Shown piece by piece: positions 6,359-23,600 of a stretch of DNA of 64,000 nt (its first letter is position 1; every line of letters begins with the position of its first letter). The DNA comes from Brevundimonas sp. NIBR10 (GTDB lineage: Bacteria; Pseudomonadota; Alphaproteobacteria; Caulobacterales; Caulobacteraceae): assembly GCF_027912515.1 (NCBI RefSeq), contig NZ_CP115464.1:2852001-2916000 (forward strand), in the 5' to 3' direction. Made by a program: the position numbers and the translations under genes. The notes beneath the pieces are model-generated. The model worked only from the letters and a program-made list of their open reading frames with translations, was not told the DNA's origin and searched no databases.

Positions 6359-7252
6359 TCAGTCAGCTGCCGCGTAGTGCCGCACGATCGAGGGCGGGGC
6401 CGGCGGTGCGGGTGGCCTCGGCACCGCCGGCCGGACGACCATCATCCGGCTCCGGCAAGGCGTGGCGCGCAGCGACCCGGGCAGGCGGGTATTGTCGTCG
6501 CCACAGGCCTCCGACACCTGGCTCTGGGTCAGGCCGCGGGCGCGCGACAGGTCCACGCCCCGGATATCGACGCGGCGCAGCGAGGCCCCGGCGAAGTTGG
6601 CGCGACCGAAGACGGCGCCGGTGAAGCGGGCGTTGTCCATCTCGGCGTTCTGAAAGTTCGCGCCCGAGAAGTCGCCGCCGCCCATGTTGGACGCCTGCAT
6701 CTCCGCCCCCACGAAGGAAGCGTTGCGCGCGCTGACATTGGCCAGGGTCGCGCCCATCAGCTCGGCGTCGTTCAGGTTGGCGTCGGCCAGGACCGCCCCG
6801 TTCATGTTCACGCCCATCAACTCGGCACCCGACAGGTTGGCCCGGCTGAGGTTGGCCCGCGAGAAGACGGCTCCGGCCGACGAGGCTCCGCTCAGCGACG
6901 TGTCCACGAACACCGAGGCGGTGAAGTTGGCCCCGTTGATCTCCGCGCCGCGCATGTCGGCGTGGGTGAAGTCGCTGGACGAGAAGTTGGAGCCGACCAT
7001 CTCTGCCCCGCGCAGGTTCGAGCCGACCAGGGTCGCCGAAATGAAGGTCGCACCGTTGAAGGTGGCCCCCGACAGGTTCCGGCCCGACAGCTCACACCGG
7101 TTGCACGACCCGCCCAGCGAGATGGTCCGGGCCACGTCGCGGTCCTGAACGCTCAGCCGGACCTCGGCGAGCGCGGACGTTCCGGCCAGGACGGCGGACG
7201 CGCCGAGAGCCGTGGCGAGGAGGCGATGGAGAGGGCGAGCGATCTGTTTCAC
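6359..7252 (-). CDS. Secreted pentapeptide-repeat protein (larger paralogue)
   Basis: A 297-residue protein with a Sec-type signal peptide (about 1-29, ending TSALAE) followed by a right-handed quadrilateral beta-helix of about 35 A(D/N)LXX repeats (for example LSGATFNGATFISATLVGSNL) from about residue 50 to 240. Just before the helix is a CNRC pair (C-x-x-C). The repeats stop before 'GVDLSRARGLTQSQVSEACGD', and the tail is proline-rich. The smaller paralogue at 7315-7806 is upstream on the same strand, 62 bases away. Function is unknown; pentapeptide proteins include DNA-gyrase mimics, but a periplasmic location argues against that. Confidence 0.85.
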   Translation of the reverse strand: MKQIARPLHRLLATALGASAVLAGTSALAEVRLSVQDRDVARTISLGGSCNRCELSGRNLSGATFNGATFISATLVGSNLRGAEMVGSNFSSSDFTHADMRGAEINGANFTASVFVDTSLSGASSAGAVFSRANLSRANLSGAELMGVNMNGAVLADANLNDAELMGATLANVSARNASFVGAEMQASNMGGGDFSGANFQNAEMDNARFTGAVFGRANFAGASLRRVDIRGVDLSRARGLTQSQVSEACGDDNTRLPGSLRATPCRSRMMVVRPAVPRPPAPPAPPSIVRHYAAAD

Positions 7253-7314: not shown

Positions 7315-7806
7315 TCAGCAGGCGGGAATGTGCAGGCTGCCAGGCAGGACGGTCGCTTCGTCGCCGCACGCGCGGTTCAACTGGGCCTGCGTCAGACCCG
7401 TTGCCCGCGCCATCTCGGCGCCGGAGAAGTTGGTCCCGACCAGGGTCGCGCCTGCGAAATTGGCCCCCTCCAGATAGGTCCCGACGAAGCTGGCGTTGGT
7501 CAGATCGGCCCGCGAGAAGTTCGACGACGAGAACACTGCGCCGTAGGCTTCGACATCCCTCATGTCGGCACCGGAAAACCGGGTGCGGTTCATGACGCTG
7601 AGGCTCAGGTCCGACTGGCGCAGCCGCGATCCCGACAGGTTCAGGCCGTTCGCCTCCAGCCCGGAGAAGTCGCCCTGGAACAGGTTGCAGCCCGAACAAC
7701 TGGCCCCGCCACGCACTCGCGCGATCTGGCCCGCGTTCTGTGCCGAGGCGGGCAGGGCAGCCGCAAAGATGGCGGCGGCGAGTGTGGAAATCAGGATCGG
7801 CTTCAT
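7315..7806 (-). CDS. Secreted pentapeptide-repeat protein (smaller paralogue)
   Basis: A 163-residue protein with a signal peptide ([23 protein letters not shown]), a C-S-G-C pair just before the repeat region, and about 18 pentapeptide repeats ([21 protein letters not shown]). It ends with '[30 protein letters not shown]', closely parallel to the end of the repeat region in the neighbour (6359-7252), so the two arose by duplication. ATG 7806 is preferred over 7833 because it gives a clean signal peptide. Likely periplasmic or exported; role unknown. Confidence 0.85.
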
Positions 7807-7958
7807 CGACAGGCTCCGGCTGTGGCGCACCACGGATCGATCCTGAACCGAAAAGGTTTCAATCCTCCTTTCAGACGGTTGGTCGGGCCGGGCGGCTTGA
7901 CTCGAACGCGACCCGGGGCGAGTCGGGCATCTGGAAACGATCTCGAAAAGGAGACGCC

Positions 7959-9306: not shown

Positions 9307-9378
9307 CAACCGCCCCTAAGGCGGCGGCGCGGGGGCCGGGCGGCCTTTCGTGACGAACGGATGAGATTGGGACGGGCC

Positions 9379-10485
9379 ATGAATCGCTTGAAAACCCTGG
9401 CGCTGGTCGCCGCCGGCGCGAGTGCCCTCATGCTCGCCTCCTGCGCCACCACGGCCCCAACCGGTGAAGAAACCGGCGCGTCAGACTCGGCCGGGATGAC
9501 GGTCGGCGTCGGCACGCCGGTTCTCGCGTCGGCCGAGACGGTCGCGGTCGGCACGGCCAACGCCGACGCCGCCGACGATCCGGCGATCTGGGTCGATCGG
9601 GCGGACCCGAACCGGGCCGTGATCTTCGGCACCGACAAGAAGGCCGGCCTCTACGCCTATCGGCTCGACGGATCGGTCTTGCAGAACCTGGCTGGCGGAC
9701 AGCCGAACAACGTCGACCTGCGCGAAGGCTTCGTGATCGACGGCCGGGCGCAGGTTCTGGTCGCGACCAGCGACCGCAGTCTCGACCGGTTCGGCATCGT
9801 CCTGTTCATCATGGATCCCGCGACGCTCCAGACCCGCCAATGGGGATTGATCCCCGTCGACCTCGACGAGCCCTACGGCCTGTGTGTCGGCAAGCGCGGC
9901 GATGGTTTCATCGTGATCATCAACGGGACGGACGGTCAGGTCCGCCAGGTTGCCGTATCCGTCGGCCCCGACGGCAATCCCGTCGGCATGGTCGAGAAGC
10001 GATACGACGTCGGCAGCCAGACCGAGGGCTGCGTCATCGATGAAGAGGCGGGCGTTGTCTACATCGGCGAAGAGGCCCGGGGCGTCTGGCGCTATTCGCT
10101 GGATCCGGCGCGGGGCTCGCGTCGTGAGTCCATTGCCCGTGCGCCGAGCGACGTCCTGGCTCCCGATGTCGAGGGCCTGGCCCTGCTGAAGGAGAACGGC
10201 GCGACCTGGCTCATGGCGTCCAGCCAGGGCGATTCCGCCTTCTCGATCTGGCGCGTCGATGGGTCCACCACCTATCGCGGCCGGTTCTCGGTCGTGGCCG
10301 GCGGCGGAATCGACGCCGTGACCGGGACGGACGGCATTGCCGCCATCGCCGGCCCGATCGGCGGCTATGCCCAAGGCCTGATCGTGGTCCAGGACGACGT
10401 CGATGAAATCCCCGGTTCGACCGGCGAGCGCCAGAACTTCAAACTGGTGGACTGGGCCGCGATCAAGGCGGCGCTCGGCCTCTGA
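9379..10485 (+). CDS. Beta-propeller 3-phytase, predicted lipoprotein
   Basis: Beta-propeller phytases release phosphate from phytate using calcium. The 368-residue product has a lipoprotein signal (lipobox LASC, about residues 17-20). The propeller follows, with family motifs DDPAIWV, FGTDKKAGLYAYRLDG, NNVDLR, 'EGCVIDEEAGVVYIGEEARGVWRY' and 'DVEGLAL'. The start at ATG 9379 gives the cleanest lipoprotein signal; an ATG six codons upstream is possible. A candidate Pho box precedes it. It is the last gene before the type II secretion locus, making it a plausible export substrate; Caulobacter type II secretion is known to export a phosphatase lipoprotein (ElpS). Confidence 0.88.
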   Translation: MNRLKTLALVAAGASALMLASCATTAPTGEETGASDSAGMTVGVGTPVLASAETVAVGTANADAADDPAIWVDRADPNRAVIFGTDKKAGLYAYRLDGSVLQNLAGGQPNNVDLREGFVIDGRAQVLVATSDRSLDRFGIVLFIMDPATLQTRQWGLIPVDLDEPYGLCVGKRGDGFIVIINGTDGQVRQVAVSVGPDGNPVGMVEKRYDVGSQTEGCVIDEEAGVVYIGEEARGVWRYSLDPARGSRRESIARAPSDVLAPDVEGLALLKENGATWLMASSQGDSAFSIWRVDGSTTYRGRFSVVAGGGIDAVTGTDGIAAIAGPIGGYAQGLIVVQDDVDEIPGSTGERQNFKLVDWAAIKAALGL

Positions 10486-10576: not shown

Positions 10577-11773
10577 ATGATCGAACGGCTGAGGCGCGGT
10601 CGCCGGCTTCTGGCCGAGGTCGCTTCGTATGCCATGCCTCTTTGCATCGGCGCGGTGCTCCTCTTCGGCTCGGCCGGCGGGGCAGGAGCGGCACCGGGCC
10701 CGGATGCCCGATCCTTCTATCTGATCAGCCTGTCCCAGACGCCGCTGCCGGAGGCCGCTGACGCCGTCCTCGTCAAATCGCTGGCCTCCACCGTGCGGAT
10801 CGATCAGGGCGTGGACGCCGACATCACCCTGTCGATCGCCGAGCCGATGACGGTCGAGGACCTCGAGATCGCCTTCGCCGCCGAACTGTCCAACCACGGC
10901 ATCGCCCTGGTTCGGGATGGGGAGGGGTATCGTCTGGCGGATGTCTCTGTGGCAATGGTCGAGACGCCAAGGCCGCTGATCGTTGGCGCACCCTTGGCGA
11001 CCCCGAAGGCGACGATCGCCCAGCAACCTGCCTCAGACGACGGCCCGGCAGTTGTCTCCGACCCCCGGGGGAAAGCGTGGGGGCTGTATGCGGCCTTGAT
11101 ACTGGTCGCAGCGGTCGTCGCCGGTCTGGCTGTTCGCTTTGGCCAACCCCTGATCATGGGTCTGAGCCGCCGCTTCGCTCATACCTCCGCGCGTCCTGCT
11201 GCCGTGGCCAACTCCACCCAGCGCGACGCCGTTGTGGACTGGTTGCTGAGCCGGCACAGCGTTCCGCTGCCCCTGCTGGCGTCGGCCTGCGACCGGGCCG
11301 CGCGTCTCACCCGACCCGTCGAGCAGGCGCTTTGCGATGTCGGTGCGGTGACGGATGCGAATCTGGCGGATGCCTATTGTGCGATCACGGGCCTGTCGCG
11401 CTGGGATCCCGCGACGACACCGGCTCATACTTCAGGAGACATGGTTCTGGACGCCTTCATCCAGAAGCATCCGCTGCGTGTCGTGGAGTTGGATGACTGG
11501 TCCCTGGTCGTGGCCTGCGCCGACCCGCTCGATGATCGAACCTATGCGGCCCTGTCGCGGACAGCGCGGCGAATGGTGACCTTGCGCGTTGGGTGTCTGT
11601 CCGAGATCGCGACGGATGGCGGGGCCGCGTCCGATTCGGAGCATCATGCCCCGCTCGTGATCGTGCCCTGGTCGCGGCCGAGGCCTGACGGAGCGCACCT
11701 GCTCCAGGCCATTCTGGCCCGCCGGTCCACCGCAGAGGCGGGTCAGGCCTCCGGCGACGTCAACGGTCAATAG
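10577..11773 (+). CDS. Accessory T2SS protein: secretin-N0-like domain, membrane segment, GspE/MshE-N-like domain
   Basis: A 398-residue protein with no recognised standard name. Order: hydrophobic signal or anchor (about 17-38), a domain at about 46-122 that follows the secretin N0/STN pattern (DADITLSIAEPMTVEDLEIA, then 'GIALVRDGEGYRLA', as in GspD 'VTSAEPLSVNGVW...NAWRIVP'), a linker, a transmembrane helix (168-186), and a domain at about 215-345 like the MshEN/GspE N-terminal domain (ALCDVGAVTDANLADAYCAITGL; LVVACADPLDDRTY). Topology would put N0 in the periplasm and the MshEN part in the cytoplasm, bridging secretin and ATPase. It converges on gspD with a 7-base overlap. Domain calls are by eye and need profile searches. 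Confidence 0.7.
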   Translation: MIERLRRGRRLLAEVASYAMPLCIGAVLLFGSAGGAGAAPGPDARSFYLISLSQTPLPEAADAVLVKSLASTVRIDQGVDADITLSIAEPMTVEDLEIAFAAELSNHGIALVRDGEGYRLADVSVAMVETPRPLIVGAPLATPKATIAQQPASDDGPAVVSDPRGKAWGLYAALILVAAVVAGLAVRFGQPLIMGLSRRFAHTSARPAAVANSTQRDAVVDWLLSRHSVPLPLLASACDRAARLTRPVEQALCDVGAVTDANLADAYCAITGLSRWDPATTPAHTSGDMVLDAFIQKHPLRVVELDDWSLVVACADPLDDRTYAALSRTARRMVTLRVGCLSEIATDGGAASDSEHHAPLVIVPWSRPRPDGAHLLQAILARRSTAEAGQASGDVNGQ

Positions 11774-13887
11774 ACCCCGTCGATCTCGGCCGGCAGTCGG
11801 GGGCCCGGGGGATAGGCCAGCAGGCTCCAGCCGCGTGTGGGGACGGTCTCTTCGGTCCGCAGTCGATCGAACTGGGCCCGGGCCGCCGCAGCCGCATCGG
11901 CGGGATCGCGCAGGATGGTCGGGCGAAGGAAGATGAAAAGGGTGCGCCGCGAGGTGCTCTCGCGCGTGGTGCGGAACGCCCGGCCCAGGATCGGGATGTC
12001 GCCCAGGATCGGCACCTGGCTGTCGGCCGACAGCCTGTCGTCGCTGATCAATCCGCCCAGCACGATCGTCTGGCCGTTGTCGGCCAGGATGGTCGTCTCG
12101 ATGCTGCGCCGGTTGGTGATCAGGTCCGCCGCCCCGGCCAGGGTCGAGTTGACGAGGGAGGAAACCTCCTGCGCGACCTCGAGCCGGATCACGTCGCCGT
12201 CGTGGATACGCGGGATGACCTTGAGAGTGATGCCGACGTCCTGACGTTCGATCGTTGTGAAGGGGTTGATGGTGTTGCCGTCGGTGGCGAAACTGCCGGT
12301 GCGGAACGGGACGTTCTGGCCGACGACGATCTCGGCCGGTTCGTTGTCCAGGGTGGTGATGCTGGGGGTCGACAGCAGGTTGGCGCGGGCCGAGGTGCCC
12401 AGAGCCTGAACCAGCAGGCTGAAGTCGCTGCCACCCCGAATGACCGCTGACGCGCCCTCGGGTGCCAGGGCCGATGCGGCCGTCACGCCCAGTGCCAGCA
12501 GAACCTGACGCAGCGAGACGCCGGTCGAGGAGAAGGACGTCCCGCCCGACGATGCGGAGTCGATGGCCGCGCCGCCGAAACCGAGCTGCACGCCCAGCTG
12601 TTCGGCCTGTTCGCCGGTGATCTCTACGATGGCGGCCTCGATCGTGACCTGGGGCCGACGAATGTCGAGTTCACCGATCAGGGCCTCCATCTCGGCGACG
12701 GCGGCGGGTGAGCCGCGCAGGGCGATGGCGTTCAACTCGGGCGCGGGCTGGATCGTGATGTCGGTCAATCGAATGCCGCCGGCTCCGGTAACCTGAGGCG
12801 CGGCCACGACGACGGGAGCGGATGCCTGACCGGCCTGACCGGGTACCGCAGCGGTGCCACCCTGGGCGCGTGCCGCCATCTGCGCGACGGCGCTGAGCTG
12901 GGCCTGTTGCGAAGTCGATCCGAGAGCACGGGCCACGGGGTTGGTCGCTTCCTGCGGCGCACCCAGAAGACCGCGCATGACGTCGGTGACCGTCTCGGCG
13001 TCGCCGTGGCTCAGGCGGACGACCCGGGTGATCGGGGCCGATCCTCCGGGGATGTCGAGCGCCTCGGCGACCTTTCGGGCCTCGCGGATGCTGTTGGCGT
13101 CCCCGCGCACCAATACGATGTTACTGCGCTCGTCGACGGCGACACGGATGCCCGCGCCCTCGCCGACGGGGGCCAGCAGGCTGGTGATCGACTGGCCGAC
13201 GTCGGTCGCGCTAGCGTAGCGCAGGCTGATGCTCTCGAACGCCTGGCCGCTGCCGCTGTCTAGCGCCTGGGCCAGTTGTTCGATCCGACGGACGTTCTCG
13301 GCATAGTCGGTGACGATGATGGCGGGCGGCGAGTTGACCGATTCCAGACTGCCAAATGAGGCGACCAGCGGCCGCAACACTCGCACGGCCTGATCGGGGG
13401 CAAGGTTCCGCAGGCGGATCAGGCGGGTGACGATATCCTGGGTCCGGGCCCGGCGCAGATCGGTCGAGCCGTTCTGGATCAAAGCCGCCTGGGGGACGAT
13501 CCGCCATGCGTTGCCGCTGCGGACCGCGCCGTATCCCTGGACACGAAGGACGGACAGGAACAGGTCCCAGACGCCGTTGACGCTCAAGGGCTCGGCCGAG
13601 GTGACGTTGACGACGCCCGCCACGCTGGGATCCAGGATCAGGGTCCGGCCGGTGATGCGAGAGATCTGTTCAGCGACATCCTTGATGTCGGTGCCGCGAA
13701 TATTGACCACAACCCCGCCCGAGACGTCGGGGGCAGGCGTCTGGGCCAGACCGGGCGTGGCCAGCAACAGGCTTGCGCTCAGCGAGAGCGTCAGGACCTT
13801 ACGAAGGGGGGCCGTGCGGGTAAGGTGCAGCGGTTTGATCGCGGGTCTCCTAACGCAGCGGGAAGGACAGGGTGAGCGTCCTTCCAT
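11767..13887 (-). CDS. gspD: Type II secretion outer-membrane secretin GspD
   Basis: GspD forms the outer-membrane channel. The 706-residue product has a signal peptide (about residues 28-48), the N0 domain ('VNIRGTDIKDVAEQISRITGRTLILDP'), N1-N3 domains, and the C-terminal secretin core (for example 'LLSTPSITTLDNEPAEIVVGQNVPF' and 'GGLISDD'). It is the last gene of a minus-strand operon G-H-I-C-D and overlaps the end of gspC by 38 bases if ATG 13887 is used. A better-placed Shine-Dalgarno (TTAGGAGA) lies inside the overlap, followed by an ATC codon about 30 codons later in frame, so the true start is uncertain. Confidence 0.93.
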   Translation of the reverse strand: MEGRSPCPSRCVRRPAIKPLHLTRTAPLRKVLTLSLSASLLLATPGLAQTPAPDVSGGVVVNIRGTDIKDVAEQISRITGRTLILDPSVAGVVNVTSAEPLSVNGVWDLFLSVLRVQGYGAVRSGNAWRIVPQAALIQNGSTDLRRARTQDIVTRLIRLRNLAPDQAVRVLRPLVASFGSLESVNSPPAIIVTDYAENVRRIEQLAQALDSGSGQAFESISLRYASATDVGQSITSLLAPVGEGAGIRVAVDERSNIVLVRGDANSIREARKVAEALDIPGGSAPITRVVRLSHGDAETVTDVMRGLLGAPQEATNPVARALGSTSQQAQLSAVAQMAARAQGGTAAVPGQAGQASAPVVVAAPQVTGAGGIRLTDITIQPAPELNAIALRGSPAAVAEMEALIGELDIRRPQVTIEAAIVEITGEQAEQLGVQLGFGGAAIDSASSGGTSFSSTGVSLRQVLLALGVTAASALAPEGASAVIRGGSDFSLLVQALGTSARANLLSTPSITTLDNEPAEIVVGQNVPFRTGSFATDGNTINPFTTIERQDVGITLKVIPRIHDGDVIRLEVAQEVSSLVNSTLAGAADLITNRRSIETTILADNGQTIVLGGLISDDRLSADSQVPILGDIPILGRAFRTTRESTSRRTLFIFLRPTILRDPADAAAAARAQFDRLRTEETVPTRGWSLLAYPPGPRLPAEIDGVY

Positions 13888-14659
13888 TTCTGATGACGTC
13901 GACCCGGGCCCCGCCAGACTGGACGGCCTGGTTCAGGATCGCCTGGGGGTCGGTGTTGCCGGCGACGGTCTGATTGTTGACGCGGGTGATGATGTCGCCG
14001 GGCTGCAGACCCGCCGCGAGGAGGGGGGGCGGAACGGCGTCGCCGATGCGGTAGCCCTGATCGGTCGTAGCGACGCCCGCGCCCTGGAGCGCGCTTGCGG
14101 CGGTGCCGGCGACCACCGGCGACGGGGCCGGGGTCGCGGGCGTGATGATGGTCAGACCGGTCGCCGGTGGTGCCGCAGCGTCGATCAGGGCGGGCGGTGC
14201 AGGAAAATCCAGCCGCTCGGTCTGGGCCCCGACCTGCAGGATCACGTGATCGACGTGGATGGACTGGACGACGGCACCGGTCGCCAGGGTCTGTCCGGGG
14301 CTGACGGAGACGGCGGGGGCTTCGCCGACGGCGATCACGGCGCTGGACGCCTCGGCCGGAATCGCGAGGAAGATCGCCTTCAGGATCAGGCCACCGCCTG
14401 CTGCCTGGGTCGTGGCTGCGGCTCCTCCGAACGGCGACCAGGCGAGAATGGCGGGCAGGTCGGCCGATACCGCCGACGAAGGGGGCGGGGGTGCGACAGC
14501 GATCCTGTCACGCCCGTCGTCCAGTCCGGACACGCGCCAGAACACACCTGCGGCCGCCGCCCCGACCGAGATCACCACCAGCAGGATCAAGACCTTCAGC
14601 GCCAATGGCCCATGCCGGGCGTCGAACAGCCGGTCGAAAATGACGATGTGACGGATCAT
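13850..14659 (-). CDS. gspC: Type II secretion inner-membrane linker GspC
   Basis: GspC connects the inner-membrane platform to the secretin. The 269-residue product has a short cytoplasmic N-terminus, one transmembrane helix (about 20-40, ALKVLILLVVISVGAAAAGVF), a proline-rich linker, the homology region (WSPFGG..LILKAIFLAIPAEASSAVIAVG) and a C-terminal PDZ-like domain ('GYRIGDAVPPPLLAAGLQPGDIITRVNNQTV'). The start is ATG 14659, overlapping the gspI stop by four bases; the frame is open further upstream but that part is antisense to gspI. gspD follows. Confidence 0.9.
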   Translation of the reverse strand: MIRHIVIFDRLFDARHGPLALKVLILLVVISVGAAAAGVFWRVSGLDDGRDRIAVAPPPPSSAVSADLPAILAWSPFGGAAATTQAAGGGLILKAIFLAIPAEASSAVIAVGEAPAVSVSPGQTLATGAVVQSIHVDHVILQVGAQTERLDFPAPPALIDAAAPPATGLTIITPATPAPSPVVAGTAASALQGAGVATTDQGYRIGDAVPPPLLAAGLQPGDIITRVNNQTVAGNTDPQAILNQAVQSGGARVDVIRNGRTLTLSFPLR

Positions 14660-15039
14660 GCCGATCCACCCTGACGATCGACGAACCCCGTCAGCTTCGC
14701 CGCCGCGCCGCGAGCGCCGACGGGGGTCACGCCGATGTTGACCATCGACAGGTCCGGATCGTCGCTCGGCCTGACCTCGACCTCGACCCGCCATGAGCGG
14801 CCAAGCATATCGACCCGGTCGGTGCCGTCGGTCGGCGTTCCACCCTGAAGACTCAGCTCTGCCATCCGGTTCTCGGCGACCCACTGGGCGACGACCCGGT
14901 TCTGGAGCCCTCGCACCTGATCGATATGGGCCTCGGTCGCCCCGATCAGGCCAGCGCCTGCGATCGCGAGGATGGCAAGAGCGACGAGGGCCTCCATCAG
15001 GGTGAAGCCGTCGCGATGGCGCGCGGAGAGCGATGTCAT
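14656..15039 (-). CDS. gspI: Type II secretion minor pseudopilin GspI
   Basis: A 127-residue type IV-pilin-like protein with a prepilin leader and cleavage site G-FTLMEALVALAIL (glycine at residue 11, glutamate at +5), then a hydrophobic helix and a small C-terminal domain. Minor pseudopilins GspH-I-J-K prime and cap the pseudopilus. The start overlaps the gspH stop as ATGA and the stop overlaps the gspC start, so G-H-I-C-D are translationally coupled. A prepilin peptidase would be needed and is not in the window. Confidence 0.85.
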   Translation of the reverse strand: MTSLSARHRDGFTLMEALVALAILAIAGAGLIGATEAHIDQVRGLQNRVVAQWVAENRMAELSLQGGTPTDGTDRVDMLGRSWRVEVEVRPSDDPDLSMVNIGVTPVGARGAAAKLTGFVDRQGGSA

Positions 15040-15503
15040 GTGGACCCCGCCCGCGTCGTCGCCGTCAGACCGTCGAAATCGACGGTCCAGCCGCCCCGCT
15101 CGTCGCCGATGGACAGGGCGATGGCGTTTCCGCCTCCATCGCCGTCCACGATCACCATGTTCGGGGCGTTGCCGCCCAGGGTCAGCCCAGCGGGGAGGCG
15201 GTGTCGGCCTTCACCGGTCGCCGTCCAGCGCCCGGCATCATCCGTCGTCATCAGCCCATAGCCTTCGGCGTCCCAGGACAGGGAGACCGGCCGCCGGGAC
15301 ACCAGCGCTTCGTCCACGGCCCCACCCAGCCGTGCAGCCAGCAGGTTCGCCTCGGTTCGCGCGTCGGAACCGCTTCGCGTCAGCCCCATCCCGAGGACCA
15401 CCATCGTCGTCAGCACGCCCACGATCGCCAGGGTCACGAGCACCTCCACCAGCGTCATGCCGGCGCGTGGGTCGTGGATCCGTGCTGCCGCGGGCTGGCC
15501 CAT
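15036..15503 (-). CDS. gspH: Type II secretion minor pseudopilin GspH
   Basis: A 155-residue pseudopilin. The leader ends in G-MTLVEVLVTLAIV (cleavage about residue 15, glutamate at +5; methionine instead of phenylalanine at +1). The C-terminal part matches GspH by order and by 'SLSWDAEGYGL' and 'GGWTVDFDG'. It lies three bases from gspG and overlaps gspI by four bases. GspH forms part of the pseudopilus tip complex. Confidence 0.8.
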   Translation of the reverse strand: MGQPAAARIHDPRAGMTLVEVLVTLAIVGVLTTMVVLGMGLTRSGSDARTEANLLAARLGGAVDEALVSRRPVSLSWDAEGYGLMTTDDAGRWTATGEGRHRLPAGLTLGGNAPNMVIVDGDGGGNAIALSIGDERGGWTVDFDGLTATTRAGST

Positions 15504-15506
15504 GCC

Positions 15507-15995
15507 TCAGCGATCCGCCAGGAGGTCCGCGGCAAGGCCTTCGCCACCGGCCTTGCCGTCCTTGCCCAGGCTCATCAGATCGAACGGCCGGCCGGTGCCC
15601 GGGCTTCTGTAGACATAGGCCGTCCCCCAGGGATCGACCGGAACCTCGGACAGATATCCCTCTTCGGACCAGTTGCTTGCCACTGGCGGCGTGGTCGGTC
15701 GATCGACCAGGGCGGCCAGTCCTTGTCCCGTCGTCGGATAGTCGCCGTTGTCGAGGCGATAGACCTTCAGGGCCGCGGAGATGGCGCGCAGATCGGTCTT
15801 GGCCACGGTCACCCGCGCCTGATCCGGACGACCGATGATATTGGGCAGGATCATGAGCGCGACCACGGCGATGATCGCCAGCACCACGATCATCTCGATC
15901 AGAGTAAAGCCTGACCTCGACGCAGATTCTCGGCTATGGACCGTCCAGGAATTGTCTCGCCGACGCTTTGGCGTTCGTAACATCATGACCACCAT
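15507..15995 (-). CDS. gspG: Type II secretion major pseudopilin GspG
   Basis: GspG polymerises into the pseudopilus. The 162-residue product has the prepilin signature SGFTLIEMIVVLAIIAV (cleavage after the glycine at about residue 29, glutamate +5) and the GspG C-terminal pattern: 'DLRAISAALKVYRLDNGDYPTTGQGLAALV', then 'GYLSEVPVDPWGTAYVYRSPG' with the calcium-site region. The leader is long (about 28 residues); internal ATGs at 15986 or 15983 are possible. It heads the minus-strand operon and is divergent from gspL. Confidence 0.94.
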   Translation of the reverse strand: MVVMMLRTPKRRRDNSWTVHSRESASRSGFTLIEMIVVLAIIAVVALMILPNIIGRPDQARVTVAKTDLRAISAALKVYRLDNGDYPTTGQGLAALVDRPTTPPVASNWSEEGYLSEVPVDPWGTAYVYRSPGTGRPFDLMSLGKDGKAGGEGLAADLLADR

Positions 15996-16014
15996 CTACC
16001 CAGCCTCGGGGGCT

Positions 16015-17145
16015 ATGATGCCTGACCTGAAAAGTCCAGATGGGCCAAAAAACCTTCACAATAGCGGGTCTATCAAGGGCGTCTGGCAGTTTAGCCATGA
16101 AGGTCTGGCTCTGGTGAATGTAAGTTGGGCGGGTGCGCCCGTTATCCTGGTCCCGACCGAAGACGTCCGGGTGCTTGTGCTCGACCTTCCGATGCCGGGG
16201 CGTGCCCAGAGGGCCGCTGCCTTGCCCTTCGTTATCGAGGACAGGATCGCGGAGTCGCCGGAACTGTCGCACACTGCCTTGGGCGAAGCCGTGGCGCCGG
16301 GGCGCTATCTTGCTGGCGTCGTGCGTCACGATCGCATGGCGGCATGGTGCGCCTCCGCCGAGGCTGACCTCAGCCAGGCTGCCATGGTTCCGGACGCCCT
16401 GGCCTTGCCGATCCCGGCTGCCGACGCCTGGTCGATCGCCTTGCTGGGCGCGCGCGCTCTCGTCCGCACGGGGGACGGATCGGCTTTTGCGATCCCGGTC
16501 AGCGCGCTGGAAATGATCTGGCACCAGGCGGGTCGTCCGCTACTGTCTTCCTATGGTGAGCCGTTGCCGGCCGGGATTGCCCACGACCGGATGGACGACG
16601 GGCTTATGGTCTGGCCCGTAATGGCCGGGACCGTGCCTTTGAACCTGCGTCAGGGGGCCTATGCGACCGTTTCGACCAACCGGTCCTGGTTGCGTCAGGC
16701 GGCACTCGTCGTGGTTCTGGGTCTGATCGCGCACGCGGGCCTGCTGACCATCGACACCCTGGGCCTGATGCGGTCGGCCGATGAGAAGAGGGCGTCCGTG
16801 GCCACCCTGGTGACGCAGGCCGGAGGGCCGCCCGGCGGCGACCTGGCGGTGACGGCTGAGGCGATGTTGCCACGCCCGCCCGTGGCTCCGTCGGGTCTGA
16901 CCCCTCTGCTGGGCCGAGCCGCACGGGCGTTGCAACCCCTGGGTCCTTCGGTGACCCTGACCTCCGTGGGCTATGCTGGCGAAGCCGGTCTGACCCTGGC
17001 ACTGGAGGCTGCCGATCCGGCGGCCCTGCAACAGGCCCACAGCGCGCTGGCCGGTGCCGGGCTCAGCCCGGTGTCCGGCGGGGCGACCGTCGAGGGCGGC
17101 AAGGCTCGCGACCGGATCGTGATTTCCGCCGGAGCGCCAGCGTGA
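16015..17145 (+). CDS. gspL: Type II secretion inner-membrane platform protein GspL
   Basis: GspL recruits the GspE ATPase to the membrane. The 376-residue product has an N-terminal cytoplasmic actin-like domain ('VLVLDLPMPGRAQRAAALPFVIEDRI' is a GspL hallmark), one transmembrane helix (about 222-242, QAALVVVLGLIAHAGLLTIDT) and a periplasmic ferredoxin-like domain. The start is uncertain: ATG 16015 and ATG 16018 avoid overlap with the divergent gspG start, whereas an in-frame ATG at 15985 would overlap it. The stop overlaps the gspM GTG start (GTGA). Confidence 0.88.
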   Translation: MMPDLKSPDGPKNLHNSGSIKGVWQFSHEGLALVNVSWAGAPVILVPTEDVRVLVLDLPMPGRAQRAAALPFVIEDRIAESPELSHTALGEAVAPGRYLAGVVRHDRMAAWCASAEADLSQAAMVPDALALPIPAADAWSIALLGARALVRTGDGSAFAIPVSALEMIWHQAGRPLLSSYGEPLPAGIAHDRMDDGLMVWPVMAGTVPLNLRQGAYATVSTNRSWLRQAALVVVLGLIAHAGLLTIDTLGLMRSADEKRASVATLVTQAGGPPGGDLAVTAEAMLPRPPVAPSGLTPLLGRAARALQPLGPSVTLTSVGYAGEAGLTLALEAADPAALQQAHSALAGAGLSPVSGGATVEGGKARDRIVISAGAPA

Positions 17146-17647
17146 CCGTGGCCTTCTTGAACGCCGGTCGTGGTGTCGATGTCTGGATTGTGCGAGGCCG
17201 GTCCTGGTGGAGCGAACGCCAGCCGCGCGAGCGCCTGCTGCTCTGCGGCCTCGCCGTCCTCCTCGCGCTCGCTGTCATCATCAACGGCATCGCCAGGCCA
17301 TTGATCGAGGTTCGGCGCGAAGCGAGGGCCGAGATTGCCCTTTTCGACGCGCTGGAGGTCCGGCTCCGCGCTGCCGGTCCCAATCTGAGGCCAACGACGG
17401 GCAAGATCGCCGGCGGATCGCTCCAAACCGTGGCGACGATGACCGCCGCAGAAGCGGCCCTGCCGATCCGCGAGATCGCCGAGCAGGGCGAGACGACGGT
17501 CGTCGCCCTCGAAAGTGTGAACTTCGTCGCCCTCATGACCTGGATCGATCGACTGGAACGTGAGCAGGGCGTGATGGCGCAGAGCGCGGAAATCGAACGG
17601 CAGACCTCGCCCGGGGTCGTGAATGCCCGCCTGACCCTGACCCGCCC

Positions 17648-17651
<4 letters not shown>
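17142..17651 (+). CDS. gspM: Type II secretion inner-membrane protein GspM
   Basis: A 169-residue bitopic protein: a short cytoplasmic N-terminus containing WWSERQPRERLLLCG, one transmembrane helix (about 32-50) and a periplasmic ferredoxin-like domain. The family motif 'W...R.PRERLLL' is seen. GspM stabilises GspL. It starts at GTG 17142 overlapping gspL by four bases, and its stop overlaps gspE by four bases, so L-M-E are coupled. Confidence 0.85.
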
Positions 17652-19153
<1,502 letters not shown>

Positions 19154-19157
19154 CCCC

Positions 19158-20393
19158 ATGCCGGCCTACAGCTTCAAGGCCTTCGACGGCGGCGGCAAGG
19201 CGCAACGCGGCGTGATCGAAGCGGCCAGCCTGGCCGGTGCCCGACGTGCATTGCGCGAGCGGAGCCTTATTCCGACAGAGGTGATCCCAACCGCTTCAGC
19301 GACCGACGCCGGGCGGTCGAGCGGAGCCTCATTCCTGACCGATCTGTTCCGTCCGCGCGTCGGCGCCCGCGCCCTGGCCGCCCTGACGCGTCAGCTATCG
19401 ACCATGATCGGCAGCGGCATCCGCATCGAGGAGGCGCTGCGTATCCTCGGGGTCCAGAACGCGAACCGTCCCGAGGGCCCGGTGTTGAACGGGGTCCGCA
19501 GTGCGGTGCTGGAGGGTCGCAGCTTTGCCTCAGCCCTCGGCGAACACCCCCGGGTCTTCCCCGCCTTCTATCGCGCCTCCGTCGCCGCAGGTGAGCAGTC
19601 GGGGCGACTGGAGGAGGTGCTGTCGCATCTGACCGACTTCGTCGAACGTCGCGAGCGATCGCAGAAGAAGGTCCAGCTGGCCTTGATCTATCCGGCATTG
19701 CTGGCCCTGGTGTCGGTCCTGATCATCGGTCTGATGCTGGTCTTCGTGGTGCCCGACATCACCCGGGTGTTCGTTTCACGCGGGGTCCAGCTGCCGTTGC
19801 TGACCCGTCTGCTGATCGGGCTGAGCGCCGGGATTCAGAGCTTTGGCTGGATAGCAGGGCTGCTGGCCTTGGTCGGAGCGGTCGCAGCCCAGCGCTGGCT
19901 GGCCGTAGAGGCAAACAGCATACGGCTCGCCCGCTTCATCGCCCGCCGCCCCCCGACCTCACGGTTCAGCCTTCAGCTGAACGCCGCGCGGTTTGCCGGC
20001 AGTCTGGCGACCCTGATCGGCAGCGGTGTTCCCTTGGTGGATGCCGTCAACTCCGCTGCCGCCGTGACACCCAACGCCTGGCTGCGGGAGCGAGCCAGGC
20101 TGGTCGGCGCGAGGGTTCGCGAGGGGGCCAGTCTGCAACGCGCCATGACCGAGGCCGACTGTTTCCCTCCCATGCTGATCGCCGTCGTCGCCAGCGGAGA
20201 GGCCAGCGGCCGCCTCGGCGACGCCCTGGGCCGTGCCGCCCGTGATCTGGACGCCGACACCGAAGCGCTCAGCGCCACACTGGTCGCCCTGGTCGAGCCG
20301 GCCATCCTGCTGTTCATGGGCGGCGTGGTGCTGCTGCTGGTGCTGGCGATCCTGATGCCGATCGTCAATCTGAACAATCTGGCGGGGATGTAG
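19158..20393 (+). CDS. gspF: Type II secretion inner-membrane platform protein GspF
   Basis: The polytopic platform protein. Two tandem T2SSF domains are visible in 411 residues: the first around 'ALTRQLSTMIGSGIRIEEALRIL' and the second around 'RFAGSLATLIGSGVPLVDAVNSAAAV', each followed by hydrophobic helices ('YPALLALVSVLIIGLMLVFVVPDI', 'PAILLFMGGVVLLLVLAILMPIVNLNNL'). The N-terminal 'YSFKAFDGGGKAQRGVIEAAS' is also family-typical. It closes the L-M-E-F block and converges on gspN six bases away. Confidence 0.95.
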   Translation: MPAYSFKAFDGGGKAQRGVIEAASLAGARRALRERSLIPTEVIPTASATDAGRSSGASFLTDLFRPRVGARALAALTRQLSTMIGSGIRIEEALRILGVQNANRPEGPVLNGVRSAVLEGRSFASALGEHPRVFPAFYRASVAAGEQSGRLEEVLSHLTDFVERRERSQKKVQLALIYPALLALVSVLIIGLMLVFVVPDITRVFVSRGVQLPLLTRLLIGLSAGIQSFGWIAGLLALVGAVAAQRWLAVEANSIRLARFIARRPPTSRFSLQLNAARFAGSLATLIGSGVPLVDAVNSAAAVTPNAWLRERARLVGARVREGASLQRAMTEADCFPPMLIAVVASGEASGRLGDALGRAARDLDADTEALSATLVALVEPAILLFMGGVVLLLVLAILMPIVNLNNLAGM

Positions 20394-20399
20394 GGTGGG

Positions 20400-21080
20400 T
20401 CAGAGCTGGCTTTCCATGACCGGCCGCCCGATCAGTGCCGGCAGGATCGCGGCACCGGCGTCCAGCACAGTGACTTTCAGCCGGCCTTGCCGATCGATCG
20501 TCAACTGGGCGAGGCGGCCCTGTGCGCTGCTTGACGAAAGCCAGGCCGATGTGCCGTTGACGTCCATGGTTGATTGCCCAGTCATTGCGGGGACCGGCAG
20601 CGAGCCCGCCCCGACAAGATCGCGCGCCGAACACGACCCAGGTCCGCTGCGGACGCGGCCCTCGGCACCGGATCGGCGACCGGCCAGGACGATCCGGTCC
20701 ATATCGACGACGAAGGTCAGATCGCACCGGATGGGCAGGTCCCCGGTCAGGGTGTCGGTCAGGCCCGGCCCGGCCAGCCCCGACATCTCCTCAAGCCTCA
20801 CAGCGCCCGGACGCCACAGGCCGGTCGCGACCAGATCCGTCGTGCCGCCCCGCATCTGCACGTCACTGACGATCCCGAATCGCAGAAGAGAACTGACCGG
20901 GCGCACGCGCCAGGACACGGCGGTCTGGTCTCCTATGGCGGCCTCGCCTTTCCAGATCGTGCCCACCGCGTCTGGTGCATTCATACCGGCGAGCTTGAAA
21001 AGCATGGCGGCAGGCATGGTGACGACAAGCGCCAGCAGGAACGTGACCAGGCCGATGATCGTGAACGTCATCGGCCCCAT
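20400..21080 (-). CDS. gspN: Type II secretion protein GspN
   Basis: A 226-residue protein: N-terminal membrane helix ('MTFTIIGLVTFLLALVVTMPAAMLFKLAG'), then a periplasmic beta-rich domain with 'GTIWKGEA' and a late 'QGRLAQLTIDRQGRLKVTVLDAGAAILP' typical of GspN. GspN is accessory and missing from many T2SS. The start is placed at ATG 21080; ATG 21071 and an upstream GTG at 21119 (overlapping the divergent gene) are alternatives. It is the only minus-strand gene between two plus-strand T2SS blocks. Confidence 0.8.
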   Translation of the reverse strand: MGPMTFTIIGLVTFLLALVVTMPAAMLFKLAGMNAPDAVGTIWKGEAAIGDQTAVSWRVRPVSSLLRFGIVSDVQMRGGTTDLVATGLWRPGAVRLEEMSGLAGPGLTDTLTGDLPIRCDLTFVVDMDRIVLAGRRSGAEGRVRSGPGSCSARDLVGAGSLPVPAMTGQSTMDVNGTSAWLSSSSAQGRLAQLTIDRQGRLKVTVLDAGAAILPALIGRPVMESQL

Positions 21081-21112
21081 GCGACGCAGCCGATCGGCGA
21101 GGACGGACTGAA

Positions 21113-22183
21113 ATGACACTCGATCGACGTCGCTGGCTCGGCCTCTCGACAGCAGCAGGGTTGGCATCTCTGGTGTCTCCAATGTCGGCCTGGGCGGCGG
21201 AAACTCCGCCCCGGACGGCTTTGCTGTTGCCTCTGACCGGCGCATCCGCCGACCTTGCGGTCAGCATGACACGGGCGGCCGCCCTGGCGCAGCCCGCAGA
21301 TCGAAAACAGCCCGAATTTCTCGTGCTGGACACGGGTGGTACGGCCGAGGGTGCAGCTCTGGCAACCGGCCGCGCCGTCGCTGCCGGCATCGGCCTGATC
21401 ATGGGCCCCGTCTTTGCGGCGGAGGTCGACTCCGTCACAGCGGCTGCTGCGGGTCGGCCGGTCCTGGCTTTTTCCAACGATGCTGCGGTTCGCGCGACGG
21501 GTGCCTTCAGCATGGGCATAACGGCATCCCAGGGTGTGTCGGCAATCTTGGCCTATGCCCGCAGTCGTGGCGTTCGCCGCATCGCCATCCTGACCGACGC
21601 TGAGACATGGTCTGTTCAGTCCCTCACAGCCGCCCGCGCCCATGCGTCCAGGCTCGGCGTGGAAGTCTTCGAGGCGGATATCGCCGGCCTCCTAGGTGCA
21701 GGCGAGGGGCTGGCCGGCCTGCTGAGCACGGCGTCGGGCGGGAGTTTGCCGGACGCGGTGCTGGCCTGCCGTTCCGATCCGGCAACGATCGAGGTGTGCG
21801 GGCGGATCGTGGAACTGGGTATCCAGTTGTTGGGCCCGTCGTCCTGGTCGGAGGGAACAGGGGCTGTCCTCGGCACCGTCGAGGGGGCATGGTTCGCCGC
21901 ACCCGATCCCGCCGCCTTCGCCAGCTTCGCCCAGACCTATGAGGCCAGGCACAGCAGTGCGCCGGGCCTGCTCGCGGCCCTGGCGTTCGATGCCGCGGGC
22001 GTCGTTCGACGTCTGGATGCGGCGGGACGAGTGAGCCGCGACGGATTGCTGGCACCCGAAGGATTCCAGGGCGCACTCGGCGCCGTGCGCTTCACCGCAG
22101 ACGGCGGCTGCGCCCGTGAACTGGCGATCCAGGTGGTTTCGCAGGGAGCAACGCGCGTGGTCGCACGCGCGACCGGACAATGA
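21113..22183 (+). CDS. Periplasmic ligand-binding protein in the T2SS locus (type 1 PBP fold, LpoA/LivJ-like)
   Basis: A 356-residue exported protein: signal peptide about 1-28 with a twin arginine pair (DRRRWLGLS), then a type 1 periplasmic-binding fold ('RTALLLPLTGASADLAVSMTRAA', 'IGLIMGPVFAAEVDSVTAAAAGRPVLAFSND', 'RRIAILTDAETWSVQSLTAARAHA', 'GLLAALAFDAAGVV'). Such folds occur in branched-chain amino-acid binding proteins and in the LpoA peptidoglycan-synthase activator. No ABC permease or ATPase is adjacent, and its stop overlaps gspJ by four bases, so it belongs to the gspJ-K transcript. A role in secretion or in opening the peptidoglycan is inference. Confidence 0.75.
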   Translation: MTLDRRRWLGLSTAAGLASLVSPMSAWAAETPPRTALLLPLTGASADLAVSMTRAAALAQPADRKQPEFLVLDTGGTAEGAALATGRAVAAGIGLIMGPVFAAEVDSVTAAAAGRPVLAFSNDAAVRATGAFSMGITASQGVSAILAYARSRGVRRIAILTDAETWSVQSLTAARAHASRLGVEVFEADIAGLLGAGEGLAGLLSTASGGSLPDAVLACRSDPATIEVCGRIVELGIQLLGPSSWSEGTGAVLGTVEGAWFAAPDPAAFASFAQTYEARHSSAPGLLAALAFDAAGVVRRLDAAGRVSRDGLLAPEGFQGALGAVRFTADGGCARELAIQVVSQGATRVVARATGQ

Positions 22184-22743
22184 CCCAGGGGCATGCCCGA
22201 AAGCGAGCGGTCGCCAACGGGTTCACCCTGATCGAACTGCTGGTCGCCATGGCCCTGTTCGCGTTGATCTCGCTGGCCGGATTCGCGATGCTGAGCGGGA
22301 TCATCCGGACACAGGAGAGGCTGGACGGCCGGCTGGAGCAGTTGGCTCAACTCCAGCGGGCCATGTACCTGATGACCTTGGACTTCGAGTCGATGACGCC
22401 GGCCCCGGTCGTCATCACTGCGGACTCCATCGCGTTCCAGCGCGCGCCCGCTGCGGCTGCGGGCGGTACGATGGCGGTGCGATATGGCGTGAAAGGTCGC
22501 GATCTGGTCCGTCAGGCCGGGGCAGGCGGCGAGCAGGTGCTGATCCGCGGAGTATCGGGGATCAGCCTGCGCTTTCTGGACCCGGCCGGTGCCTGGGTGG
22601 TGCCAACGCCAGCCTTGGCTCTGGCTGCAGGCCTGTCGCCTGAACGGCCGGGCGCCATCGAGGCGACCCTGATCCTGGCCCCCGACGGCGGGGGGCTGAG
22701 CGGGCCCCTGCGTCGCGTCGTGGAACTGCCGAGGCTGCCCTGA
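22180..22743 (+). CDS. gspJ: Type II secretion minor pseudopilin GspJ
   Basis: A 187-residue pseudopilin with leader and cleavage site NG-FTLIELLVAMALFALISLAGF (glutamate +5) and the GspJ body ('LDGRLEQLAQLQRAMYLMTLDFESM'). The stop overlaps the gspK start by one base (TGATG). GspI-J-K form the quasihelical tip of the pseudopilus. Confidence 0.9.
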   Translation: MTQGHARKRAVANGFTLIELLVAMALFALISLAGFAMLSGIIRTQERLDGRLEQLAQLQRAMYLMTLDFESMTPAPVVITADSIAFQRAPAAAAGGTMAVRYGVKGRDLVRQAGAGGEQVLIRGVSGISLRFLDPAGAWVVPTPALALAAGLSPERPGAIEATLILAPDGGGLSGPLRRVVELPRLP

Positions 22744-23600
22744 TGTCGCGTCCACAATCACGCGAGGCGCGGTCGGGGCTGATCCTGGTCAATGTGCTCT
22801 TCATCGTCGCCCTGTCCGCCCTGGTCGTGCTGCTGATGGTCTCGTCCCAGTCGGATGCCATCGACCGAACGGTGCGGCTGCGCGAGGCGTCACAGGCGGG
22901 GGTGATCGCGCGATCGGGCGAGCTTTCTGCGGTCACGGCACTGCGCCGCGACGCCGCGACCGCGCCCGAGACGGACAACTCGGCCGAACCCTGGGCCGCG
23001 ATTCGGGAGCAGGACATCGCCATCGAGGGCGGGACCTTCAGCCTGACCATCACCGACGACCAGGCCCGGTTCAATCTGAATACCGTGGCGAACGGTGGAC
23101 TGGTGACCGAAGAGCGACTGGGCAAGATTCTGGCCGCCGTCGGTCTGCGTCCGGCCCTGCGTACGCCGATCATCGCCCTCGTGAGGGCCAGCGGTCCTCT
23201 GGCCAATCTGGATCAACTAAGCACCGTCGGCCTCACGGTGGCCGAGATCGCGGCGCTGCGACCCTTAATCACCGTTCTGCCTCTGGATACCAGCATCAAC
23301 CTGAATACTGCGGACGAGCGGATGATAGCCGTGTTGTTCGATAGCCCCATGACCGCGGGTCTGCTGGTTCGCACGCGGCAAAGGAACCGGGGGGTGCTGA
23401 CGCCCCAGGATCTGGCACGCAGGGACATCTACGCCCCGCCCGGCGTCGGCTTCACCTCGAACTTCTTTCGGGTGACCTCAGAGGTCCAGGTCGGTGACAC
23501 GCGTCAAAGGATCGTAAGCTCGCTGATCAGGCAATCCGGACGCCGTGGACCCGAAGTTCTGGTCTACGCCCGACGCAGGACCGCAGCTGCCTCGAAGTAA
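22743..23600 (+). CDS. gspK: Type II secretion minor pseudopilin GspK
   Basis: A 285-residue pseudopilin, larger than the others because of its inserted helical domain. The hydrophobic segment SGLILVNVLFIVALSALVVLLMV follows the leader; position +5 is not glutamate, as is usual in GspK. The body shows 'DDQARFNLN', two helix-hairpin-helix-like segments ('LANLDQLSTVGLTVAEIAAL') and 'DTSINLNTAD'. It ends the locus and converges on hutD. Confidence 0.9.
   Translation: MSRPQSREARSGLILVNVLFIVALSALVVLLMVSSQSDAIDRTVRLREASQAGVIARSGELSAVTALRRDAATAPETDNSAEPWAAIREQDIAIEGGTFSLTITDDQARFNLNTVANGGLVTEERLGKILAAVGLRPALRTPIIALVRASGPLANLDQLSTVGLTVAEIAALRPLITVLPLDTSINLNTADERMIAVLFDSPMTAGLLVRTRQRNRGVLTPQDLARRDIYAPPGVGFTSNFFRVTSEVQVGDTRQRIVSSLIRQSGRRGPEVLVYARRRTAAASK

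Follow-up and report, generated by a model that had tools for sequence, protein, structure and literature searches.

A predicted single-span membrane protein with a secretin N0 domain, extended in one clade by an MshEN domain, beside a type II secretion locus of Brevundimonas

Architecture of the protein beside gspD

The window analysed here, a stretch of 64,000 nucleotides from the 4.0-Mb single-contig genome of Brevundimonas sp. NIBR10 (G000), holds a gsp locus for a type II secretion system (T2SS), with gspD, C, I, H and G on the minus strand, gspL, M, E, F, J and K on the plus strand, and gspN-like and LppC-like genes between F and J. At the edge of this locus, meeting gspD tail to tail, lies the gene for a 398-residue protein, P0001, in which a signal peptide, a secretin-type N0 domain, a single transmembrane (TM) helix and an MshEN domain of the GspE/PilB N-terminal type (ND0+ND1) are predicted in that order (Table 1). 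An earlier account drawn from the letters of this stretch, here called the sequence-only reading, had described the reading frame with its 7-base overlap with gspD, the domain order N0-TM-MshEN, and a topology placing N0 in the periplasm and MshEN in the cytoplasm. Frame and overlap are as it described them, the domain order is borne out by N0 and MshEN matches together with TM prediction, and the topology holds as a prediction, the C-terminus of P0001 being placed in the cytoplasm because a net positive charge follows the TM helix. Comparison with the orthologue in genome G282 gives 24, 11 and 44 differences at codon positions 1, 2 and 3, a coding-type divergence.

Both folds were recovered in P0001. 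The structures closest to its N0 domain are enterotoxigenic Escherichia coli (ETEC) GspD (4jtm/3oss), XcpQ (4e9j) and LspD (7pmp), and those closest to its ND0+ND1 domain are XpsE (2d28), MshE (5htl) and PilB (7lkm); PDB searches by sequence with members of the family gave nothing significant (best E 0.34, to LspD). At E values up to 1, P0001 matches neither Secretin_N (PF03958, the N1-N3 type) nor the secretin barrel (PF00263), nor the T2SSE ATPase (PF00437; only 50 residues remain after MshEN), nor the T2SSC (HR) family of GspC (PF11356; the locus encodes a separate GspC), nor the HR-type T2SSB family of GspB/OutB (PF16537). By the features examined, P0001 is neither a secretin, an ATPase, a GspC nor a GspB.

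The MshEN domain prompts the question of cyclic di-GMP (c-di-GMP) binding, for which the motif is given as RLGxx...LxxxLxxQ (PMC5013675). Among the 36 long forms, that is, family members with the MshEN domain, 33 could be anchored for this comparison, the first motif being placed by fixed spacing. In all 33, motif residues 1, 2, 3, 21 and 24 (R, L, G, L and Q) are replaced at both motif places, and 32 of them retain L17 at both places and G10 at the second. A c-di-GMP receptor function of the long-form MshEN is therefore rejected, as far as sequence can tell.

Distribution, variants and origin

The gene belongs with the gsp system within Brevundimonas, as the sequence-only reading had supposed. 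Of 131 Brevundimonas genomes, 22 have a window-type GspD (called at E up to 1e-100), and an N0-TM gene is present in all 22; two more carriers, G282 and G318 (gene at contig end), have window-type GspE (96% and 77%). None of the remaining 107 genomes, in which absence of the T2SS was judged by GspD and not by GspE, carries the gene. Fisher's exact P for the co-occurrence with GspD is 9e-27, without correction for descent. In 16 of the 24 carriers the gene lies tail to tail with gspD, overlapping it by 4 bases in six and by 7 bases in two, and standing 1 to about 590 bases from it in the others. In six more (G216, G296, G251, G321, G269 and G298) the two genes are on different contigs despite at least 2.6 kb of available sequence past gspD, so the gene has outlasted the linkage there; in the remaining two the linkage cannot be told.

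The Brevundimonas scan matched six genomes beyond the 24 carriers, all with frames of at least 691 residues, and that of G274 (contig end), when read, proved to be the other GspD type treated below. A scan of the whole order (299 genomes) returned matches in 46, three of them N0-TM genes; the others have frames of at least 568 residues, taken as secretins by length, except a 148-residue frame in G330 that on reading resembles part of a secretin and shows no TM segment. The recurrence in related gsp loci on which the sequence-only reading depends thus holds inside Brevundimonas (22/22) and fails outside, and the gene is not present wherever this T2SS type occurs: a short-form profile found no match below E 0.2 in any of the five non-Brevundimonas genomes with window-type GspD. 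The long-form profile is insensitive to short forms, a first scan giving two full-length members in 249 and a second missing G135, G139, G177, G216, G286, G288 and G296. Three protein-database searches, in which the best 8000 candidates were scored, returned named relatives mostly from Brevundimonas.

Most carriers lack the MshEN domain. Short forms without it occur in 20 of the 24 genomes (18 of these were read; G216 and G296 were judged from a 260-residue frame), and MshEN is the mark of a single clade, that of the long forms. In the GspD tree this clade is sister to the short clade (midpoint root; the outgroup genomes have no N0-TM gene). Since short and long forms share the signal peptide, the N0 domain, the TM helix and, few exceptions aside, a C-terminal motif of the LxIP type, the constant part of the family is a membrane-anchored N0 with a tail. 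The motif is seen by inspection in 35 of 36 long forms, and the pattern [LF][VITS][IV]P.F is matched by 118 of the 120 short forms listed.

Neither domain appears to come from the neighbouring gsp genes. The best BLAST score of the N0 domain falls, for 24 of 24 N0-TM proteins, on another GspD type (8 proteins) and not on the window type (24 proteins), and in an N0 tree window-type GspD stands apart, at 100/100, from N0-TM proteins grouped with other-type GspD, on 77 columns, with long branches flagged and the N0-TM proteins not monophyletic. On these grounds descent of the N0 from the window gspD is rejected. The MshEN domain resembles, by hhalign, the N-terminus of the other-type GspE (556-565 residues), in which MshEN lies above the cut-off in both proteins scanned (from L058 and L016); against window GspE the hhalign probability is 0.3, the two being unrelated in sequence, and descent from the window gspE is likewise rejected. 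We infer that the N0-TM protein was assembled out of components of the other T2SS type, seemingly the donor of both domains. This second type (L058, L060, L071 and others), with an MshEN-bearing GspE and a divergent GspD, is found in other genomes of the bacterial family and in some Brevundimonas.

Proposed role and alternatives

We propose, at a probability of roughly one half, that P0001 is an accessory component of the T2SS, a single-span inner-membrane scaffold with its N0 turned to the secretin side and its cytoplasmic part on the inner-membrane platform. What was computed for this proposal is the architecture, the predicted folds, the association with the T2SS, the conservation of the tail, the absence of the c-di-GMP motif and the closeness to the other T2SS type; localisation, partners and the scaffold role follow by inference. 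The periplasmic N0 would pair with the HR domain of GspC (most likely, as GspD's own N0 does) or with the N0 ring of GspD, and the cytoplasmic part would dock on the platform, with the LxIP-type tail as the docking element common to the family. In the long clade the ND0+ND1 domain would reinforce this docking, probably by binding a platform protein such as GspL and not c-di-GMP. The GspC HR domain is reported to bind strand beta1 and helix alpha1 of the GspD N0 (PMC3169554), with one PulC HR per PulD N0 and some N0 domains possibly free (PMC6882859), and ND1 of EpsE/GspE to bind the cytoplasmic domain of EpsL/GspL (PMC8389850). Within the N0 of the present family, conservation is comparatively high in beta1 (0.35 bits in short forms, 0.79 in long forms) and alpha1 (0.61 bits in both), which is suggestive only as a sign of GspC-HR binding.

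Several findings weigh against this proposal. Strand beta4 is conserved about like beta1 (0.50 and 0.54 bits), so that the domain core alone may explain the conservation; the value for beta5 is unreliable, the short forms being gapped there. Mirror-tree distances lean, weakly, to GspF, GspI, GspM and GspL and not to GspC, partly against pairing with the latter: partial r, corrected for the shared tree and without a significance test, is 0.30-0.38 for those four, 0.22 for GspD (0.08 for short forms alone) and -0.10 for GspC. Pfam recognises the short-form N0 poorly, with matches at E up to 0.1 in 6 of 18 and a best value of 0.01; P0156 has no LxIP motif, and the pattern goes unmatched in 2 of the 120 short forms. 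The whole model of P0001 has a pTM of 0.43 with disordered linkers and does not give the relative arrangement of the domains. Finally, the gene is not a general T2SS part, the order scan finding the family only in Brevundimonas G000, G135 and G139.

A bolder form of the scaffold proposal can be put forward tentatively: P0001 may represent a new class of T2SS component, two recycled parts of another lineage, the cytoplasmic one confined to a single clade, flanking one TM helix, acting as a transmembrane adaptor that would hold or read the secretin end, relay this to the motor platform and so add a direct link from outer membrane to motor besides GspC.

The protein may instead be a sensor or regulator, its N0/STN-type domain sensing the status of the secretin or of GspC and the TM helix passing the signal on to the cytoplasmic tail. 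Such a role would resemble that of TonB-dependent transducers, whose signalling domains with the N0 fold communicate with anti-sigma proteins of the FecR type; we regard it as unlikely.

Somewhat less likely still is that P0001 is a competitor or checkpoint, an assembly chaperone and not a permanent part, which would occupy the GspC HR until the secretin arrives or hold the GspD N0 in transit. GspB/OutB, also an inner-membrane protein with one TM helix, binds the secretin N0 and helps its targeting (PMC9239104), and T2SSB lies above the cut-off in none of 131 Brevundimonas genomes (in 10 below it), an absence that is not validated, the positive control having matched in 0 of 14 genomes. OutB, however, carries HR and not N0, so that the pairing would be reversed.

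The sequence-only reading had held that the GspE of this locus is short at its N-terminus and had thought it plausible that P0001 provides an extra GspE N-terminal domain in trans, which would couple the ATPase directly to the secretin. The cytoplasmic domain is indeed a genuine GspE/PilB ND0+ND1 fold. ND0 itself is missing from the N-terminal domains of both V. vulnificus GspE and V. cholerae EpsE (PMC8389850), so here it would come as an extra. The shortening, however, is contradicted by window GspE itself, which has N1E and T2SSE and the usual EpsE-like length (N1E was scanned by Pfam in this GspE only). In the 22 complete mapped window-type gspE genes the longest reading frame is 493-530 residues and aligns to window GspE from residue 8-21, with or without an MshEN partner. 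Wherever mapped, the short forms thus have a GspE that matches this one in type and length, and the MshEN domain is unrelated in sequence to window GspE. Because 20 of the 24 carriers do without MshEN and GspE is complete either way, supply in trans cannot be the core function; as a remedy for a truncated GspE it is rejected, and in any version we give it little credence. The other half of that claim, a connection running from the secretin through the membrane, may still hold. That the gene is a functionless relic of a lost other-type operon, as the kinship of both domains and its rate of evolution (mean distance 1.31 vs 0.22-0.99, the highest in the set compared) might hint, is highly improbable given its presence in all 24 T2SS-positive genomes with conserved motifs and intact frames, and given that third codon positions are over-represented among the differences between G000 and its G282 orthologue.

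Comparison with known systems places the scaffold we propose among T2SS accessory proteins, with an architecture of its own. With GspD it shares N0; P0001 has no N1-N3 domains or secretin barrel and continues instead into a TM helix and a cytoplasmic portion. With GspE/PilB it shares ND0+ND1, but it lacks the ATPase domain, is membrane-anchored and has the c-di-GMP motif residues replaced. GspC, whose N-terminus lies on the cytoplasmic side, is also an inner-membrane protein with one TM helix and a periplasmic domain of the HR-N0 interface, but supplies the HR side and a PDZ domain. The N0 fold also occurs apart from secretins in VirB7 of Xanthomonas and DotD of Legionella, both among the structure matches and both parts of secretion machines that span the envelope; DotD is a lipoprotein of a type IV system, and neither is known to have a TM helix or MshEN. 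VirB7 is likewise an N0-bearing type IV lipoprotein (PMC3093366). OutB, with one inner-membrane TM helix like P0001, is described as an accessory joining secretin and inner membrane, but has an N0-binding HR-type domain where P0001 carries N0, and differs in orientation and cytoplasmic part (PMC9239104). In the mitochondrial T2SS, GspDN1-3 and GspEN2A/B are secretin N and GspE N-terminal domains made as separate small proteins; they are of the Secretin_N (N1-N3) and N2E kinds where P0001 has N0 and MshEN, and the excerpted text describes no fusion of both (PMC8134430). GspB/OutB, the mitochondrial split domains and VirB7 are nearest in spirit. A literature search, largely without full text and with subscription papers outside it, found no published description of such an N0-TM(-MshEN) protein, and no paper among the matches listed names both 'N0 domain' and 'MshEN'.

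The GspC-HR/GspD-N0 contact being a known link, an N0 set in the inner membrane, joined in one clade to a GspE-type domain, is a natural test object for coupling. The short form, lacking MshEN but keeping the tail motif, makes both functions separable by simple deletions. If its role is confirmed, the protein would add a component to a well-studied machine, and domain reuse from a second T2SS is suggested as a route to such parts.

The surrounding locus

Table 1. Features of P0001 and genes of the gsp locus, in window coordinates
Feature	Position	Strand	Evidence
N0-TM-MshEN protein, long form, P0001, 398 aa	10577..11773	+	ORF (open reading frame); long-form relatives P0002-P0012, P0133-P0156; coding-type divergence
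Predicted signal peptide, aa 1-39	10577..10693	+	hydrophobic ~aa 11-29; model helix 12-27
Secretin N0 domain, predicted periplasmic, aa 43-123	10703..10945	+	
Predicted transmembrane helix, aa ~167-187	11075..11137	+	model helix 167-201
MshEN / GspE-PilB ND0+ND1 domain, predicted cytoplasmic, aa 206-348	11192..11620	+	
C-terminal motif LVIVPW (LxIP-type), aa 360-365	11654..11671	+	conservation across family
C-terminal helix, aa 372-390; DGAxLLQAILxRR and close variants in long forms	11690..11746	+	alignment; model
gspD secretin, convergent, 7-bp tail-to-tail overlap with N0-TM gene	11767..13887	-	PF00263, PF03958, PF21305 above cut-offs; TIGR02517
gspC	13850..14659	-	PF11356, 44.5 bits
gspI	14656..15039	-	T2SSI, N_methyl above cut-off
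gspH	15036..15503	-	N_methyl above, GspH below cut-off
gspG	15507..15905	-	named from sequence and position, no Pfam scan
gspL	15985..17145	+	Pfam (gspL/gspM pair: PF05134, PF04612)
gspM	17142..17651	+	Pfam (gspL/gspM pair: PF05134, PF04612)
gspE, 501 aa, EpsE-like, N1E + T2SSE, no MshEN match at E up to 1	17648..19153	+	Pfam/TIGR scans
gspF	19158..20393	+	PF00482
gspN-like, sub-threshold	20400..21173	-	PF01203, E 0.009, 16.5 bits, cut-off 29.6
gspJ	22180..22743	+	named by position; Pfam N_methyl only
gspK	22743..23600	+	named by position; no Pfam match

Between gspN and gspJ, at 21113-22183 (+), lies a gene for a protein of the LppC/Peripla_BP_6 type (29.5 and 48.1 bits, both above cut-off). 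An LppC-type gene is also present in loci L085 (f2) and L087 (f17), and absent from the f2 loci L083, L084 and L086 and from all eight short-form Brevundimonas loci whose maps reach this point. Directly 5' of the N0-TM gene, at 9361-10485 (+), is a phytase gene (PF02333, 213 bits), which adjoins the N0-TM gene in G282 as well; its product is a candidate substrate of the window T2SS. Further upstream an adjacent pair of genes at 6359-7252 and 7315-7833 (both -) encodes pentapeptide-repeat proteins whose N-termini look signal-peptide-like by eye. The genome scan of G000 found no second N0-TM gene. A second mini-cluster does lie in G000 (L059 3575-7237, G000:C1 ~2079574-2083236), with gspG, gspC and gspD 92%, 61% and 94% identical to those of the window, no further gsp genes in 16 kb and an adjoining gene for a DUF4331 protein; it may provide an alternative GspC/GspD set for another substrate.
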